The translations under genes and the position numbers were made by a program. Of a DNA stretch of 64,000 nt, positions 11,869-41,816 are shown piece by piece (the first letter of the stretch is position 1; every line of letters starts with the position of its first letter). The stretch is taken from assembly GCF_009791395.1 (NCBI RefSeq), contig NZ_WSZK01000001.1, positions 62,001 to 126,000 of the forward strand, written 5' to 3'. The DNA is from Halomarina oriensis (lineage in GTDB: Archaea; Halobacteriota; Halobacteria; Halobacteriales; Haloarculaceae). Below the pieces are notes generated by a model. The model was not told where the DNA came from and made no database searches. It saw only the letters and a program-made list of their open reading frames with translations.

Positions 11869-12903
11869 TCATCGGTCACCCGCGAGGTAGTGGCGGCGCT
11901 GTTCGGCCTTCTGGCGCTCGTTGCGCCGGTCGTAGTGCTTGTCGAGGATTTCCTCCGAGGCGTTGAGACGGTCGCTGACGATGGGCCGTGGGACGTCGTC
12001 GAGTCGGTAGGCGGTCACCCGTCCGCTCCGGACGTCGTGGGGTGACCGTGACGACGGACACGAACTCGCGCTCGCGTAGTAGGTCGCGTCGCACTCGTCG
12101 AGGTCGCGGTCGTGCGGGCACGCCTCGCCGCGCCAGCATGGGCGGGTCACGCAGTAGAGCGTGTCTCTCAACGTCGACGTCACCGGTCGGCCGCTGCTCG
12201 TCGTGACGAGTGGGGCGCGGCCATGCTTGTCGAGGACGTCCTCGCGAGGGCCGTCGATGTAGTCCCGGAGGACGTCGGCCACGTGGGGCGAGATACCGTT
12301 CCACCGCTCGCTTTTCTCCTTGTTCTTCAGGGGCGTCCCCGTCGACGGTCGATGGACGAAGTGGACGGCTGGCTCGCTGCCCTCCAGGTCGCAGTCGTCG
12401 ACGTCCAGCGCTCGGAGTGCTCCGGCCCGACACCCAGTGTGCCAGAGGAGCAGCAAGGTGACGTGTCGGCGTGAGGCCCACTCGTACCGTTCGAGGTAGT
12501 CGAGGATGGCGTCGGCCCGCCCGACTTCGAGCGTCGAGTCGGAGACGTCCTCACCTGCCGAGACGGTCGGCAGTGGGACCTGTTCGAACAACTCTGACGG
12601 GACGGCGTCGACGCTCCCACAGAATCGGAGGAACGCACGAAGGGTCGAGAGGTTCCCGCGCAGCGTGACGGGTGCGATTTCGGTGCCATCGTAGCCACCT
12701 TCGCGACGCCAGACACGGAACGCGTAGAGGTCGCGACCGCCGAGGTCGTTGAGGTTCGTGTGGTCGTGTTCCTCACACCACGCGACGAACGTCCGAAGGC
12801 GGTACTTCTGGCCCTTCAGTGTCTCGCTGGTGAGTTCGTCGCGACGGGCGTCGAGATAGAGGTCGACGCCGTCGGCAGGCGCGAGCGGTTCGAGGTCACT
12901 CAT
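11869..12903 (-). CDS. Provirus tyrosine integrase
   Basis: 344 aa from ATG 12903 (MSDLEPLAPADG). N-terminal SAM-like core-binding domain about 10-110; catalytic domain about 125-335. Catalytic residues visible: Arg159 (HTGCRAGALRALD), the His289-x-x-Arg292 box (SPHDVRSGR) and Tyr324 (LDKHYDRR). A cysteine-containing insertion (C256, C262, C271, C282) lies before the HxxR box and may bind zinc. The start overlaps the J-domain gene by 8 bp, so it ends a leftward early operon. It presumably recombines the 15-bp core in the tRNA 3' end with the viral site. It is clearly homologous to the second integrase at 37899-38942. A much longer open frame upstream is a shadow of neighbouring genes. Confidence 0.93.
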   Translation of the reverse strand: MSDLEPLAPADGVDLYLDARRDELTSETLKGQKYRLRTFVAWCEEHDHTNLNDLGGRDLYAFRVWRREGGYDGTEIAPVTLRGNLSTLRAFLRFCGSVDAVPSELFEQVPLPTVSAGEDVSDSTLEVGRADAILDYLERYEWASRRHVTLLLLWHTGCRAGALRALDVDDCDLEGSEPAVHFVHRPSTGTPLKNKEKSERWNGISPHVADVLRDYIDGPREDVLDKHGRAPLVTTSSGRPVTSTLRDTLYCVTRPCWRGEACPHDRDLDECDATYYASASSCPSSRSPHDVRSGRVTAYRLDDVPRPIVSDRLNASEEILDKHYDRRNERQKAEQRRHYLAGDR

Positions 12904-36130: not shown

Positions 36131-36203
36131 GTCCTGGTAGGGTAGTGGACTATCCTCTTGGCTTGCGGAGCCAGGGACCGGAGTTCAAATCTCCGTCAGG
36201 ACG
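36131..36203 (+). tRNA. tRNA-Arg (GCG)
   Basis: 73 nt. Acceptor GTCCTGG pairs with TCAGGAC; anticodon loop TTGCGGA with anticodon GCG; T arm CCGGAGTTCAAATCTCCGT. Discriminator G. Its 3' end is repeated twice downstream, at 36303-36322 and 36453-36466. Confidence 0.88.
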
Positions 36204-36530
36204 TTTCTGCGAGGCGCTACGTGACGAGCGAAGCGAGGAGCCAGCGCCTCGTGAAACGCCACCGAGGAGACTCTGAACAGCGAGCGACCAGCGGGAGCGA
36301 GTGAGTTCAAATCTCCGTCAGGGCGCGAACGATGAGGCGAGTCGCTCACCTCATCGTTCGCGCCCTGACGTGCCTCACGCTCGTTGTGTCACCGGAACGC
36401 GGAGCGTTCCGGTTTCCAGCGGGAGCGAAGCTCCCGCGCGGCTCGCGTGAGACTCCGTCAGGACGTACCGACAGTCGGAACGTCGCTACTGGGGTTCTCT
36501 CGTTCGCACACGCCGAGCGGTGAGCGTTCG
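36204..36530. repeat. Hairpin cluster with partial tRNA-Arg 3' copies
   Basis: No gene. A 20-nt copy of the tRNA-Arg 3' portion (36303-36322) and a 14-nt copy CTCCGTCAGGACGT (36453-36466) follow the intact tRNA. Inverted repeats: CGAGGCGCT/AGCGCCTCG (36210-36218, 36243-36251); a 55-nt near-perfect hairpin at 36316-36370 (22-bp arms, whose left arm starts inside the tRNA-like copy); CCGGAACGC-GGA-GCGTTCCGG (36392-36412); GCGGGAGC-GAA-GCTCCCGC (36419-36437). Looks like old attachment-site remnants plus REP-like palindromes. Confidence 0.75.
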
Positions 36531-37088: not shown

Positions 37089-37742
37089 ATGGACCGCACC
37101 GAGCGCTACCTCCGTGCGGGACTCGCACTCTACACCGCGGGCGAGTACCACGCGGCCCACGACCCGTGGGAACATCGCTGGCTCGAACTCGGGGCGGACG
37201 ACGCCGAGACGGGTGGGGCGGACTCCCCGGACCGTCGCCTGCTCCAGGGGCTCATCCAGACGGCGGCGGCCATCCACCACGCCCGAACGGGCAACTGGGA
37301 GGGGGCGAGCGGACTCGCCGAGAGCGCTCGGGGGTATCTCGGTGGTCTCGGCGCGACCCACCGCGACGTGTCGCTCGACCCCGTCCGGACGTTCCTCGCA
37401 ACCGTCGCCGTCACGCCCGAGGCCGCCGAACGTGACGACCCGGTCGCCATCGACTTCGACGGGACGCCCGTCGACGCGGCCACCGAGGGGTTCGAGACGG
37501 TCGCACTCTGTGTCGAGGCACTCGTCGAGGAGTACGATCTCGACGAGGCGACGGTCGGGCGAGCCATCGAGTACGGGCGGGCGGACCTCGACGACGGGCG
37601 TGCGAGCAGTCCGTTCGTCTCGTTGCTCGTCGACCTGGTCGGTGGTGGGAACCGGGCGCTCGTCGTGAAACGCCTCGGTGACCACGTCGACCGACGCGAG
37701 CACCGCGAGTCGGGCGTCGAGGGTCTGTTCGACGTGGAGTGA
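37089..37742 (+). CDS. DUF309 family protein
   Basis: 217 aa. The N-terminal domain (residues 1-95) has the DUF309 signature: LYTAGEYHAAHDPWEHRW and LLQGLIQTAAAIHHARTGN, an all-helical fold with conserved His/Glu. The C-terminal 100 residues are specific to haloarchaea. DUF309 proteins have no established function. It ends 21 bp before the left repeat of the integrated element and is intact. Confidence 0.85.
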   Translation: MDRTERYLRAGLALYTAGEYHAAHDPWEHRWLELGADDAETGGADSPDRRLLQGLIQTAAAIHHARTGNWEGASGLAESARGYLGGLGATHRDVSLDPVRTFLATVAVTPEAAERDDPVAIDFDGTPVDAATEGFETVALCVEALVEEYDLDEATVGRAIEYGRADLDDGRASSPFVSLLVDLVGGGNRALVVKRLGDHVDRREHRESGVEGLFDVE

Positions 37743-37762: not shown

Positions 37763-37849
37763 TCAGTCGTGCTCGGCGGAGTCGTCCTGTGGCTGGTAGC
37801 CGAGGATGTCGCGCGCCCGCTCGATGGAGTAGTACTTCCGGTCGTTGTC
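37763..37849. repeat. attL: stranded copy of the azf 3' end (87 bp)
   Basis: 85/87 identical to 41076-41162. Read leftward it encodes the dehydrogenase C-terminus with one conservative change (RARDILGY here, RARDVLGY in the expressed gene) and the stop codon at its left end. One mismatch is synonymous. Depending on the crossover point, this copy is the original host 3' end or most of it. Confidence 0.9.
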
Positions 37850-37898
37850 TGCCTCCGGGGGTGCCCCCTCCGGCAGACGGGTCGGTTCGGACCAATCA

Positions 37899-38942
37899 AT
37901 GACGGACGCCACACCGAACCAGACTGCACCGACCCACCACCCAACCCTCGAACCCCTGTCCCCTGCAGAGGGGAGGTCACTCTACCTCGAATCCCGGAGC
38001 GACGAACTGGCCGACCGTTCTCTCGAACTCCACGAGAAACACATCACGTCGTTCGTCACATGGTGTCGGGAGAACGGTATCGAGAACATGAACGAGGTGA
38101 CCGCCCGGAGTGTCCACGAGTACCGGCTCTCCATCCGGGAGGGGTTCGCACAATCCACCCTGAGCATCTACCTCAGTACTGTCCGCCAGTTCGTGCGATT
38201 CTGTGAGAGTATCGACGGGGTGGGGGGTGGGGTAGCGGAGAAAATCGTCCTCCCCGACCGGGACCGGACTGCCCGTTCAGAGACCCTCGAAGCGGACGAC
38301 GCTACTGCCATCCTCTCGTACCTCCGGAAGTACCACTACGGGAGTCGCACACACGCTCTCATGGCCCTGTTATGGCATACAGGGATTCGGACGGGAACCG
38401 TCCAAGCCCTCGATGTGAGCGACCACCAGCACGAACGTGAACGTCTTCGGGTTCGACACCGACCCGAGACAGACACCCCCCTGAAGAATGGCGAGAACGC
38501 CGAACGGTACATCGCTCTCTCCGCAGAGGTGAGTGAGATACTCGCGGACTACGTGAGCGAGGTCCGTCACAGTGTGACCGACGAATATGACCGGGAACCC
38601 CTGTTCACGAGCAAGGGGGGTCGGCCCTCAAAGAACACCATCCGACGGAACATCTACGCGGCCACCCGTCCCTGTTCGACAGGTCGGGGGTGTCCTCACA
38701 ACAGAGACCCCGATACGTGTGAAGCGGCGGGTCGGACGAACGCGGCCTCGAAGTGCCTCTCTACGGTATCCGGTCACCCTGTCCGCCGGGGGGCCATCAC
38801 CCACCACCTCCGGCAAGACGTGCCTGAGAAGGTCGTGAGCGACCGGATGAACGTATCTCAGTCGATTCTCGAACGGCACTACGACCAACGCACGGAGGAC
38901 GAGAAAACAGAACAGCGCCGTCAGTTCCTTTCCAACATTTGA
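37899..38942 (+). CDS. Tyrosine integrase of the mini-element
   Basis: 347 aa from ATG 37899 (MTDATPNQTAPTHHP); the frame opens upstream at a TTG inside attL. Core-binding domain about 20-115, catalytic domain about 130-335. Arg164 (HTGIRTGTVQALD), His293-x-x-Arg296 (SGHPVRRGA) and Tyr328 (LERHYDQR) are in place. A cysteine insertion (C259, C265, C274, C286) is shared with the provirus integrase, to which it is clearly homologous along the whole length. Its start is only 49 bp from the att repeat. Target: 3' end of the azf-like gene rather than a tRNA. Confidence 0.93.
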   Translation: MTDATPNQTAPTHHPTLEPLSPAEGRSLYLESRSDELADRSLELHEKHITSFVTWCRENGIENMNEVTARSVHEYRLSIREGFAQSTLSIYLSTVRQFVRFCESIDGVGGGVAEKIVLPDRDRTARSETLEADDATAILSYLRKYHYGSRTHALMALLWHTGIRTGTVQALDVSDHQHERERLRVRHRPETDTPLKNGENAERYIALSAEVSEILADYVSEVRHSVTDEYDREPLFTSKGGRPSKNTIRRNIYAATRPCSTGRGCPHNRDPDTCEAAGRTNAASKCLSTVSGHPVRRGAITHHLRQDVPEKVVSDRMNVSQSILERHYDQRTEDEKTEQRRQFLSNI

Positions 38943-40159
38943 CCAAGAGGGGGCCTGACCCTCCGAGGGACCTGAAACGTGGGAACGCCGCCGCCACCCC
39001 TGGGGGTACCCTGGTGGTACCTGTGGGCCATATGGTCTGGTCTTTCTCTCATGTCGGGGATTGGTGGGGTGGGGGGTCAGACCATTTAGCAATTTCTTGG
39101 TGGTGGATTTCCCACTGGGCTTGAGAATTTGTCAGGGGGTACCCACCCAACACCCAACGAAAGGTCAAATTCTGTGGTAGTTGTTGGCCAACCTTGGCAT
39201 TCCGCTAAAGGTGGTTTAGAGAGGCCGCACTTTCTACGAGGGTCATTGGTCAGCCACGCTAGATAAATCGATTTGCGGCGCTCTCAGATACTTTAGAGAG
39301 GATGCCAAGTTCCTCCAACACTCTCGCAATTCTCGTTTCGCACACTTCTGGCCCAACTCCAGGGGGTGCCCCCACCAGTCGGGGTCCGGTGGGTCCCCAC
39401 CTGTCCGGGGAGCGTGGGAAGCGCCCCCGTCCCTCCGAGGGACGGTATGGGGGTACCCCCATCCAGTAAGATGGATTGTAATAGTACCACAATAGAGGAC
39501 CTGAAGCGCCTTCTCACGTGTAAGGATTAGTTGTACGGTTAGCGGTTAGAATACCAACCCATCAATATAGCGCCCGCCCCCACACGCGCGAGGCCTTGCC
39601 TTGGATTGGGTGGGTGGGTAGGGGGAGGGGTGTCTGCCTACCACTCCCCCCACCCTACTGGTCCTTCATTCACTGTCGCTGGTGTCTGTAGCCCGACCAA
39701 GACGCCATCTAAAGTGTCTGAGTGCCTCGTAGAGCCATCGCCCACATCGTTCCGAAGAGACCCTCTGACACATGAGGGTGACGCTCAAAACGCCGCTCAC
39801 GGAAACCCATCAACGGGGGGTCAAATCCAGAATAATAGCGCCGGGGGTAACTTTCCCTGCACCCCCTTGTGGTGGGTTTGGTCTCAAAACCGGGGGTAGG
39901 TGGGGATGAGGTTCTGTCTCAGAGATACCCCCCGATTGAAGATGGTGGGCAGTACTGAATTATCAATCAAATGTAATATTTCTAGGTCCTCACCCCTCGA
40001 CTCACTCCGATACCAAAACCCACCGACTGCGCGGCACTCCTCGTATCCCGACCCCCCGACTTGGGGTATCGCGAGTGAACCCACCGTACCCGAAGTGGCC
40101 GACCACCGATAGAACAATAGTCACCGAATAATACAGGTCAAGATATCTGACCAAACGCC
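38943..40159. other. Inverted-repeat-rich non-coding region of the mini-element
   Basis: 1.2 kb with stops in all frames and no acidic reading frame; short open frames are Pro/Ser/Gly-rich and not credible. It holds a perfect 16-bp palindrome ATGGGGGTACCCCCAT (39447-39462), a hairpin GTCCCT-CCG-AGGGAC (39429-39443), and the 12-mer CCCTCCGAGGGA twice (38959-38970, 39431-39442). Several further GGGGGTACC/GGTACC and GTGGGG/CCCCAC pairs and A/T-rich patches occur. Possible origin, structured RNA or decayed genes. Confidence 0.6.
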
Positions 40160-40357
40160 ATGTCAGGTGAATTCGGAGAAGCAGTGGAAGCGATTGTAGC
40201 CATCGGGTTCGGCGGCCTCATCTTGGTGATGTTGGCCCCACACCTGGGGGGGTACGTGTCCGTGGACTTGGCGGCGTGGGGGGTACTCTACCTGCTCGCC
40301 GCCTTGTTCGGTGGTATCGCGTTCATCATGGTGGCGTTTCGTGCGCTGGTCGGGTGA
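40160..40357 (+). CDS. 65-aa two-helix membrane protein of the mini-element
   Basis: ATG 40160. Two hydrophobic helices (about 11-27, AIGFGGLILVMLAPHLG; about 38-62, AAWGVLYLLAALFGGIAF) joined by a short loop. An AGATATCT palindrome (40141-40148) and AT-rich sequence lie directly upstream, probably the promoter. No homologue recognised. It is nine bases upstream of the next gene, so they form an operon. Confidence 0.68.
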   Translation: MSGEFGEAVEAIVAIGFGGLILVMLAPHLGGYVSVDLAAWGVLYLLAALFGGIAFIMVAFRALVG

Positions 40358-40366
40358 CCTGAGACC

Positions 40367-40909
40367 ATGCAAAACACGCTAAGTTCGCTGTTCGACGCGA
40401 CCGCCAGTAGCGACGACGGGGTTCCCGACGAGTCGATTCTCAACGTCTTGCGAAGGAGTGACGAAAAGGTCCTCAAAACGAGTGAGATTGCCGACCCCCT
40501 CCCAATCAAGCAGGGTTGGACCAGTGACCGACTGAAGACGCTGGAGGGGGAGGGGCGGGTTCATTCAAAGAAGGCCGGTTCGGGGAGAGTGTGGTGGTTG
40601 GATGATTCGGAGCCCACCCACCCTGTCGCTGAAGGCTTTGAGGACGTCCGTTGGTGGGTCTCGTTGCTGAGTAACGTGGGTACCAACGTCGCCAAGATGG
40701 GGGTGGGGGTATTGGTCCTCAGTGGGATGCTTCTGATTCCCATCTTCGCACTATTTGCCGCCCCCACCTGGGAATTCGGGATGCTCACCACTGAGAACCT
40801 TGTGACTGTCGCGTTGGTTGGCGCGATTGATGGGGGGTTGTTCCTGGTGGTGGGGGGTGGTTTCAAGCTCGGGGGTGCCCTCCTCCAGCGAAAGTTCTTG
40901 ATAGAGTAG
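40367..40909 (+). CDS. Winged-helix protein with two membrane helices
   Basis: 180 aa. Residues about 24-78 look like a winged helix (ILNVLRRSDEKVLKTSEIAD; SDRLKTLEGEGRVHSKKAG; VWWLDD as the wing). Two long hydrophobic segments follow (about 105-135, MGVGVLVLSGMLLIPIFALF; about 143-172, LVTVALVGAIDGGLFLVVGG). A membrane-bound DNA-binding protein could sense the envelope or tether the element DNA; this is inference. Similar HTH-plus-two-helix proteins are common, unexplained, in haloarchaeal mobile DNA. Confidence 0.72.
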   Translation: MQNTLSSLFDATASSDDGVPDESILNVLRRSDEKVLKTSEIADPLPIKQGWTSDRLKTLEGEGRVHSKKAGSGRVWWLDDSEPTHPVAEGFEDVRWWVSLLSNVGTNVAKMGVGVLVLSGMLLIPIFALFAAPTWEFGMLTTENLVTVALVGAIDGGLFLVVGGGFKLGGALLQRKFLIE

Positions 40910-41075
40910 CTGGCCGCCTTCTCACCCGAAAGAACTAGGTTCTCGGGGCTACCACTACGAGTGAACCGACCGAAGACGGCGACTTCCCTACACGGTATGT
41001 AGGACTACGAAACACGACCATCGAAGACCAGGGTTGAATACGCTGACACGATTATCGTAAAATGGCCGTAACAGG

Positions 41076-41162
41076 TCAGTCGTGCTCGGCGGAGTCGTCC
41101 TGTGGCTGGTATCCGAGGACGTCGCGCGCCCGCTCGATGGAGTAGTACTTCCGGTCGTTGTC
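41076..41162. repeat. attR: 3' end of the azf-like gene (87 bp)
   Basis: Direct repeat of 37763-37849, here fused in frame to the dehydrogenase body. The left boundary is the stop codon, so the element brought a replacement C-terminus of 28 residues and the host protein stays full length. Confidence 0.9.
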
Positions 41163-41816
41163 GGAGATGCCGTAGACGATCTCGTAGCGGTAGTCGGCGC
41201 GGATACAGCGGTCGAACAGGTGGGCACAGTCGCGGTAGGAGAGCCACATCGCCTGTCCGCGCTCGTAGTCGACGGGCGGGTGGCCTTTCGTCAGGTTGCC
41301 GATGCGGACGTTGACCACGGAGAGGCCGTGCATGTCGTGGTAGTAGCGGCCCAGCGTCTCGCCGGCGGCCTTCGAGACGCCGTAGACGTTCTTGGGGCGG
41401 GGGAGTTCGGAGCCGTCGAGGCGGTAGTCGCTCTCGGTGCGGTAGATGTGGGGTTTGCGGTCGGTCTCGTAGGCCCCGACGGCGTGGTTCGAGGAGGCGA
41501 ACGCCACCTTCTCGACGCCCTGCTCGACGGCGGCCTCGTAGACGGCGTGGGTGCCGTCGATGTTGTTGGCGAGTACGGAGTCCCAGGGGGCTTCGGGTCG
41601 GGGGTCGCCCGCGAGGTGGACGACGACGTCGATGTCCTCCATCGCGGACTGGAGGGCTTCTTCGTCGGTGATGTCGGCGACGTAGTACTCGTAGTCGGCG
41701 AGGTCGCCCGTCGGTGGTTCGCGGTCGAGCAGTCGCCAGTCGTGGTCCGCGCCGATACCGCCGAGGATGGCAGTCCCGACCCGACCGGCCGCCCCCGTGA
41801 GTAAGACCCGCGCCAT
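41076..41816 (-). CDS. azf: Azf-like NAD-dependent glucose-6-phosphate dehydrogenase (SDR/epimerase fold)
   Basis: 246 aa extended short-chain dehydrogenase. Rossmann motif GAAGRVGTA (8-16), HLAGDPRPEAPWDS around 67-80, catalytic Tyr145-x3-Lys149 (YGVSKAAGE), and RIGNLTKGHPPVDYERGQ. These features match the haloarchaeal zwischenferment Azf, which oxidises glucose-6-phosphate with NAD+ in the oxidative pentose phosphate pathway; annotation as a generic NAD-dependent epimerase is the alternative. Its last 28 codons lie in attR of the mini-element, so the present C-terminus is recombinant. Confidence 0.75.
   Translation of the reverse strand: MARVLLTGAAGRVGTAILGGIGADHDWRLLDREPPTGDLADYEYYVADITDEEALQSAMEDIDVVVHLAGDPRPEAPWDSVLANNIDGTHAVYEAAVEQGVEKVAFASSNHAVGAYETDRKPHIYRTESDYRLDGSELPRPKNVYGVSKAAGETLGRYYHDMHGLSVVNVRIGNLTKGHPPVDYERGQAMWLSYRDCAHLFDRCIRADYRYEIVYGISDNDRKYYSIERARDVLGYQPQDDSAEHD

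Follow-up and report, generated by a model that had tools for sequence, protein, structure and literature searches.

A 3.3-kb integrative element at the 3′ end of azf in Halomarina oriensis and its place among SNJ2-type integrases found beside protein-gene ends

A small site-specific integrative element very probably occupies the 3′ end of azf, the gene for an NAD-dependent glucose-6-phosphate dehydrogenase, in the 64,000-nt stretch of Halomarina oriensis DNA analyzed here (the window). Its circular form would carry an azf tail as att site together with an SNJ2-type integrase, and integration keeps azf full length. The repeats, an empty site, the intact azf, the recurrence with unrelated cargo, a target-specific phylogeny and conserved flanking motifs, on which this reading draws, can each be read directly in the sequences. 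The element may also be active at the present day.

Two 87-bp direct repeats lie in the window at 37763–37849 and 41076–41162. They are identical at 85 of 87 positions and are spaced by 3313 bp. The second copy, attR (minus strand), is where the functional azf gene ends after recombination; this gene covers 41076–41816 on the same strand and encodes 246 amino acids; the product scores 451.7 bits against the NCBIfam equivalog NF041293 Azf, whose cut-off is 400. The first copy, attL (minus strand), lies on the integrase side and is a displaced azf 3′ end of 28 codons plus the stop. The peptide encoded by attL is 93% identical to azf residues 218–246. An earlier note on this DNA had held that the repeats start at the azf stop and duplicate 28 codons, that the dehydrogenase stays full length, and that the target is a protein gene of central metabolism, not a tRNA gene. 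All of this is borne out; azf is intact, full length and open in 6/6 loci with both ends on one contig. The target is left open by repeats that are made of its own 3′ end, as in a gene-reconstituting integration. The outer edge of attL is located 21 bp past the stop of a convergent DUF309 gene (PF03745, 61.5 bits; 37089–37742, plus strand), the original downstream neighbor of azf in the host flank. The GC content is 0.55–0.60 between the repeats versus ~0.68–0.70 outside. A chance origin of the repeats is excluded by 85/87 identity exactly at a gene end and by the same arrangement in other genera. No second copy was found in the assembly, so the element is single-copy, and no circle or attP junction was seen there. 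Viral contigs scanned for the integrase and for free forms yielded no carrier and no relative. Elsewhere in the window, the 3′ end of a tRNA-Arg(gcg) gene (36131–36203) is repeated downstream at 36303–36325 (23 bp, 96%) and 36453–36465 (13 bp); these repeats are possibly scars of earlier integrations.

The element encodes an SNJ2-type tyrosine integrase of 347 aa at 37899–38942 on the plus strand. Phage_int_SAM and Phage_integrase domains are both present, with PF02899 at 25.1 bits (cut-off 22.3) and PF00589 at 40.9 bits (cut-off 27.1). The catalytic residues R164, H293, R296 and Y328 (R, H-x-x-R, Y) are invariant in eight aligned integrases of azf elements. Identity is 45.6% with the integrase of SNJ2 (over 95%) and 43.0% with that of HHPV4, where 30% across 60% of the protein is the lower bound for the SNJ2-type family (PMC8371274). 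The SNJ2-type loci, searched for within the class of the window, all came from that class or from named haloarchaea, in line with a restriction to Halobacteria. A tRNA gene is the usual, not the defining, target of the family, and here the target is azf. The accessory Orf2 and Orf3, optional in the family, are absent from the int operon, and the integrase gene is followed by 1.2 kb with no convincing gene. The element has three ORFs only, and neither Pfam nor PHROGs gave a match to pleolipovirus spike, VP3-like or ATPase genes. Seven further SNJ2-type integrase matches occur in the same genome, one of these inside the window. This second SNJ2-type integrase of the window, at 11878–12894 (minus strand), is 43% identical to that of the element; no att repeat for it was found within the window.

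The arrangement at azf is not confined to Halomarina. The earlier note had proposed a search for azf 3′ duplications accompanied by the same integrase type, and these were found in nine other haloarchaea of several genera and families. The nine nearest integrases, 69–79% identical (loci L065, L066, L067, L068, L069, L119, L120, L122 and the XH8 locus L159), are all adjoined by an azf 3′ fragment of 27–36 codons just upstream of the int start. Beside 42 SNJ2-type integrases of lower similarity, no such fragment occurs. Hosts include Halovenus aranensis, Halorientalis persicus, Natribaculum breve and Haloferacaceae archaeon XH8. In five of the nine genomes, the contig also holds a complete azf on the same strand, 7.1 (genome G035), 7.6 (G036), 11.4 (G247), 14.0 (G257) and 23.1 kb (G384) away. 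In G097 and G077, azf is on a separate contig with a right-arm-like motif just past its stop. In Halorientalis persicus (L069) and Natribaculum breve (L122), the azf fragment on the int side again abuts the DUF309 gene, which forms the outer flank. The fragment keeps a fixed distance and orientation to int across elements, and each displaced fragment resembles the azf of its own host. The cargo varies: an HSDR_N-like protein in G035, an HNH protein in G247 and a Rad50-like ATPase in G257 and G384. In Natribaculum breve, the azf-type integrase is interrupted by ~1 kb (L189 3670–4694).

An empty site is present in one relative. The flanks of the element are syntenic in seven congeners, from genomes sampled one per species. 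In congener G001, azf and the DUF309 gene are neighbors, and the joined flanks of the window align to this site unbroken with 73.6% identity over 1433 bp (76.3% over 427 bp across the junction itself). The earlier note had named a plain duplication with no empty-site allele in relatives as the result that would overturn its reading; in G001, such an allele exists and its flanks are continuous. In the congeners other than G001, the azf–DUF309 gap is filled with other genes, and no integrase of the azf type was found in this gap in the congeners searched. The gap in six of them (L085–L090) holds htpX, an MFS transporter with a cold-shock protein, a glycosyltransferase-like gene and others, and it looks like a hotspot. 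In G005, 114 bp past azf match the right end of the window element at 81%, and no second azf fragment is present; this match beside azf is the scar of an earlier element. Genome G135 shows an older right-arm motif as well, situated beyond the outer edge of the azf fragment that forms attL (L067, near 4864 on the stored minus strand). A free circle was rejected as the source of the G135 fragment. Since the contig is otherwise chromosomal, the structure is read as successive insertions at azf. Together with the scar in G005, it indicates that the azf site is used repeatedly.

The position of the crossover can be narrowed by comparing the two ends of each element. A 28-bp interval, ACAACGACCGSAAGTACTACTCSMTCGA in the coding sense (motif DNDRKYYS), is the only stretch that is identical between left and right copies in all six two-ended elements. 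In attL of the window it corresponds to 37821–37848 (codons DNDRKYYS-I-E). Mismatches between the copies within the gene end occur on the stop side of this interval only, in 6/6 pairs. Identity over the 28 bp with mismatches on one side is the pattern expected from strand exchange inside the interval, and we infer that the crossover takes place there. G035 and G036 represent separate species of a single genus; their displaced tails agree in the final 24 bases, while the tails on the gene differ. This fits a direction in which the gene gains the tail of the element and the old tail moves beside the integrase. The window copies differ at only 2 positions, too few to tell which tail is the original there. 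The differences between tail copies are mostly synonymous or conservative. Tyrosine recombinases usually need dyad symmetry; the 28-bp core has none beyond chance, as the best dyad did not surpass column shuffles (86% as good). This lack of a clear dyad, like the missing circle and the missing replication gene, weighs against the reading as an integrative element.

Outside the repeats, short motifs are conserved at both ends of the element. The left motif, TCGGTTCGGA (37882–37891, plus strand), lies between attL and int and is an inverted copy of the right arm. The sequence GGTTCGGA or TCGGTTCGGA, or a near variant, stands directly before the int start in 10/10 azf elements. On the right, a 59-bp block, ACTACGAGTGAACCGACCGA...GTAGGACTACGAAA (40954–41012), is conserved beside azf. 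The block contains GTGAACCGACCGA and GACTACGAAA and is present past the azf stop in most azf elements; it is kept beside azf in G257, G384, G035 and G036, occurs in the scar of G005, and is partial in G097 and G077. The left and right motifs are mutually inverted around the core and are common to elements with unrelated cargo. Judged by this placement, they probably act as arm-type sites of the integrase.

Integration could then proceed as follows. The circular form would carry a copy of the last ~28 azf codons as attachment site. The SNJ2-type integrase would recombine this copy with the chromosomal azf 3′ end inside the 28-bp DNDRKYYS interval. The host's own azf tail would be displaced to the far, int-bearing end, and the tail borne by the element would be supplied in its place, leaving azf open and full length.

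Two small genes lie on the plus strand toward azf. P0002 (40160–40357) encodes 65 aa with two hydrophobic segments by hydropathy, and is the first gene of a two-gene module. P0003 (40367–40909) encodes 180 aa in which a winged helix-turn-helix (phrog_18890, E 3e-7) is followed by two hydrophobic segments. The earlier note had described the cargo as an integrase and two membrane proteins. The integrase and the 65-aa protein stand, and the third ORF is better described as a putative membrane-anchored winged-helix protein. Full-length homologs of P0003 with 50% identity occur in G417 and G180, and homologs of P0002 (38–52%) adjoin P0003 homologs at other loci. The pair is found with its order kept in other haloarchaea (L192 9254–10015, L193 9799–10543, L194 and L195); in L192 it is placed between another integrase and more genes near a tRNA-Glu gene. 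Because the same pair recurs in the same order, it is probably a mobile module. The pair would be passenger or regulatory cargo, with a membrane-anchored regulator as our best guess for its role. A defence function was rejected, a single CARF match at E 0.015 being all that was seen.

Between int and P0002 lies a non-coding stretch of ~1.2 kb (38943–40159) with no convincing gene and no homolog found, which is possibly an origin or a regulatory region. It has no match in plasmids, and against 390 other genomes it gave just 28–33 bp matches, in 4 of the 390. The earlier note had also seen structured DNA in the element. This holds for a hand-picked segment, 39160–39330, where 171 nt chosen by eye form a long imperfect hairpin with an RNA z of -3.5; it does not extend to the region as a whole, the two halves of which fold no better than shuffles (z -0.8). 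No Rfam family matched at gathering score, and weak miRNA-model matches far below it were taken as chance. A replication gene and a capsid gene are absent among the three ORFs. With no replication gene, the element either rides with the chromosome, replicates from some origin, or uses a helper.

The phylogeny of the integrases follows their targets. In an unrooted tree of 52 SNJ2-type integrases, those at azf form one clade (100/96), nested in a clade of 15 (100/96) whose members all lie beside protein-gene 3′ ends. The other members of the larger clade are found at the 3′ end of a DUF7331 gene (L070, L071 and L121; the target of L070 matches PF24018 with 83.1 bits) or of a nucleoside-recognition (Gate-like) gene (L072, L073 and L125; the target of L073 matches PF07670 with 25.8 bits, under the cut-off of 29.6), the target of L121, L072 and L125 being read from the fragment beside int alone. 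Repeats place 13 integrases at tRNA genes, and all of these fall outside the protein-gene clade, as does SNJ2, whose target was taken from the literature; 23 further members carry no target label. The target labels need three changes on the tree, the minimum. By the sequences compared, one integrase clade keeps to azf and is part of a larger one confined to the 3′ ends of protein genes. We consider it likely that a single switch of target class, between tRNA genes and the 3′ ends of protein genes, took place, after which sub-clades each became fixed on one gene (azf, DUF7331 or the Gate-like transporter). As their members would bring along functional C-terminal codons of the target, an enzyme of central metabolism would time and again have its C-terminus exchanged in haloarchaea, the cargo ranging down to the 3.3-kb minimal form. 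As the tree is unrooted, the direction from tRNA to protein genes is suggested and not read from it.

Two special cases of a site-specific integrative element deserve consideration. The first is a dead remnant that integrated once, then lost what it needed to replicate and transfer, and has become fixed, with the integrase as a relic. The three genes, the orphan non-coding region, the lack of a replication gene, the decay of elements at azf to scars in G005 and G135, and the interrupted integrase of Natribaculum breve agree with such a fate. However, the integrase of the window is intact with all catalytic residues present, the att copies are unbroken and 98% identical, and both arm-like motifs and the P0002–P0003 pair are intact, so that we regard a dead remnant as possible, if rather unlikely. 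Much the same standing is given to the second case, a satellite in which int and att provide mobility, and a second SNJ2-type virus or plasmid of the cell supplies replication and transfer in trans. Such dependence would suit the missing replication and capsid genes, the seven further SNJ2-type integrase matches in the genome, one of them in the window, and the occurrence of the P0002–P0003 module at other integrated loci; yet no helper was identified, and the viral contigs held no packaged or free form.

Descent of all the azf fragments from one ancient insertion, inherited vertically in place of repeated insertion, is very improbable. The monophyly of the azf integrases and the azf–DUF309 order conserved between some hosts could be so explained. 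However, the site is empty in G001 and the other congeners searched have no integrase at azf. The most similar pair of integrases (L068 and L069) comes from two genera, Halovenus and Halorientalis, every displaced fragment resembles the azf of its own host, and the cargo is unrelated between elements. Simple segmental duplication, by which two azf 3′ ends would come to enclose unrelated genes, would fit the repeat alone and the variable azf–DUF309 gap within the genus. It has practically no probability left, being already refuted by the recurrence of the arrangement and its integrase clade in nine other haloarchaea with unrelated cargo, plus the empty site of G001, and disfavored by the fixed distance and orientation of the fragment to int.

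The site-specific element can be set against known systems. Protein-gene 3′ ends are already known as integration targets, while the azf target and a protein-gene clade of SNJ2-type integrases appear to be unreported in the open-licence literature; no report of azf as a target was found among open-licence papers. The 2018 IntSNJ2 study of Wang et al. is said to describe a tRNA-Met target and a 14-bp core. SNJ2-type integrases are a known haloarchaeal family with many members lacking Orf2/Orf3, and a Halovivax SNJ2-type virus has a 13 bp core (PMC8371274). The window element shares with the SNJ2 (IntSNJ2) elements the integrase family, the domain make-up, att sites outside int, and int beside an att repeat. 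SNJ2 elements known so far recombine at tRNA genes through short cores (13–14 bp), whereas the target of the azf clade is azf and its repeats reach ~120 bp. Unlike SNJ2, the window element has neither adjacent Orf2/Orf3-like accessory genes nor pleolipovirus genes. Among bacterial elements, prophage e14 keeps the function of its target gene through a gene end borne by the element. It resides in the isocitrate dehydrogenase gene of E. coli, which still works (PMC4632033). Both are insertions into a gene of central metabolism without functional loss, although e14 is a larger lambdoid prophage of a bacterium and its integrase family is unrelated. In archaea, tRNA genes are the main target, and protein genes are listed as exceptions without experimental test (PMC8371274). 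Thaumarchaeal integrated elements lie in protein-gene 3′ regions in 14 of 68 cases (PMC6563490), and Halorubrum virus BJ1 resides in an HMG-CoA reductase gene (PMC8371274). These resemble the window element in being archaeal and in protein genes, 3′-distal in the thaumarchaeal cases. They differ in their targets and mostly in having short att sites, and for none of them has an integrase clade been shown to keep to a single metabolic gene.

The azf core, in which no dyad exceeds chance, touches on a question raised about dyad symmetry of protein-gene att sites (PMC8371274). The 3.3-kb element could serve as a minimal vector directed at one defined and apparently harmless site in haloarchaeal chromosomes, and the azf tails are an example of gene-end exchange by mobile elements. 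In this widespread haloarchaeal integrase family, target choice can differ by class, tRNA genes versus protein genes, and can be fixed clade by clade. Comparison along this natural series could show which residues of the integrase determine the target.
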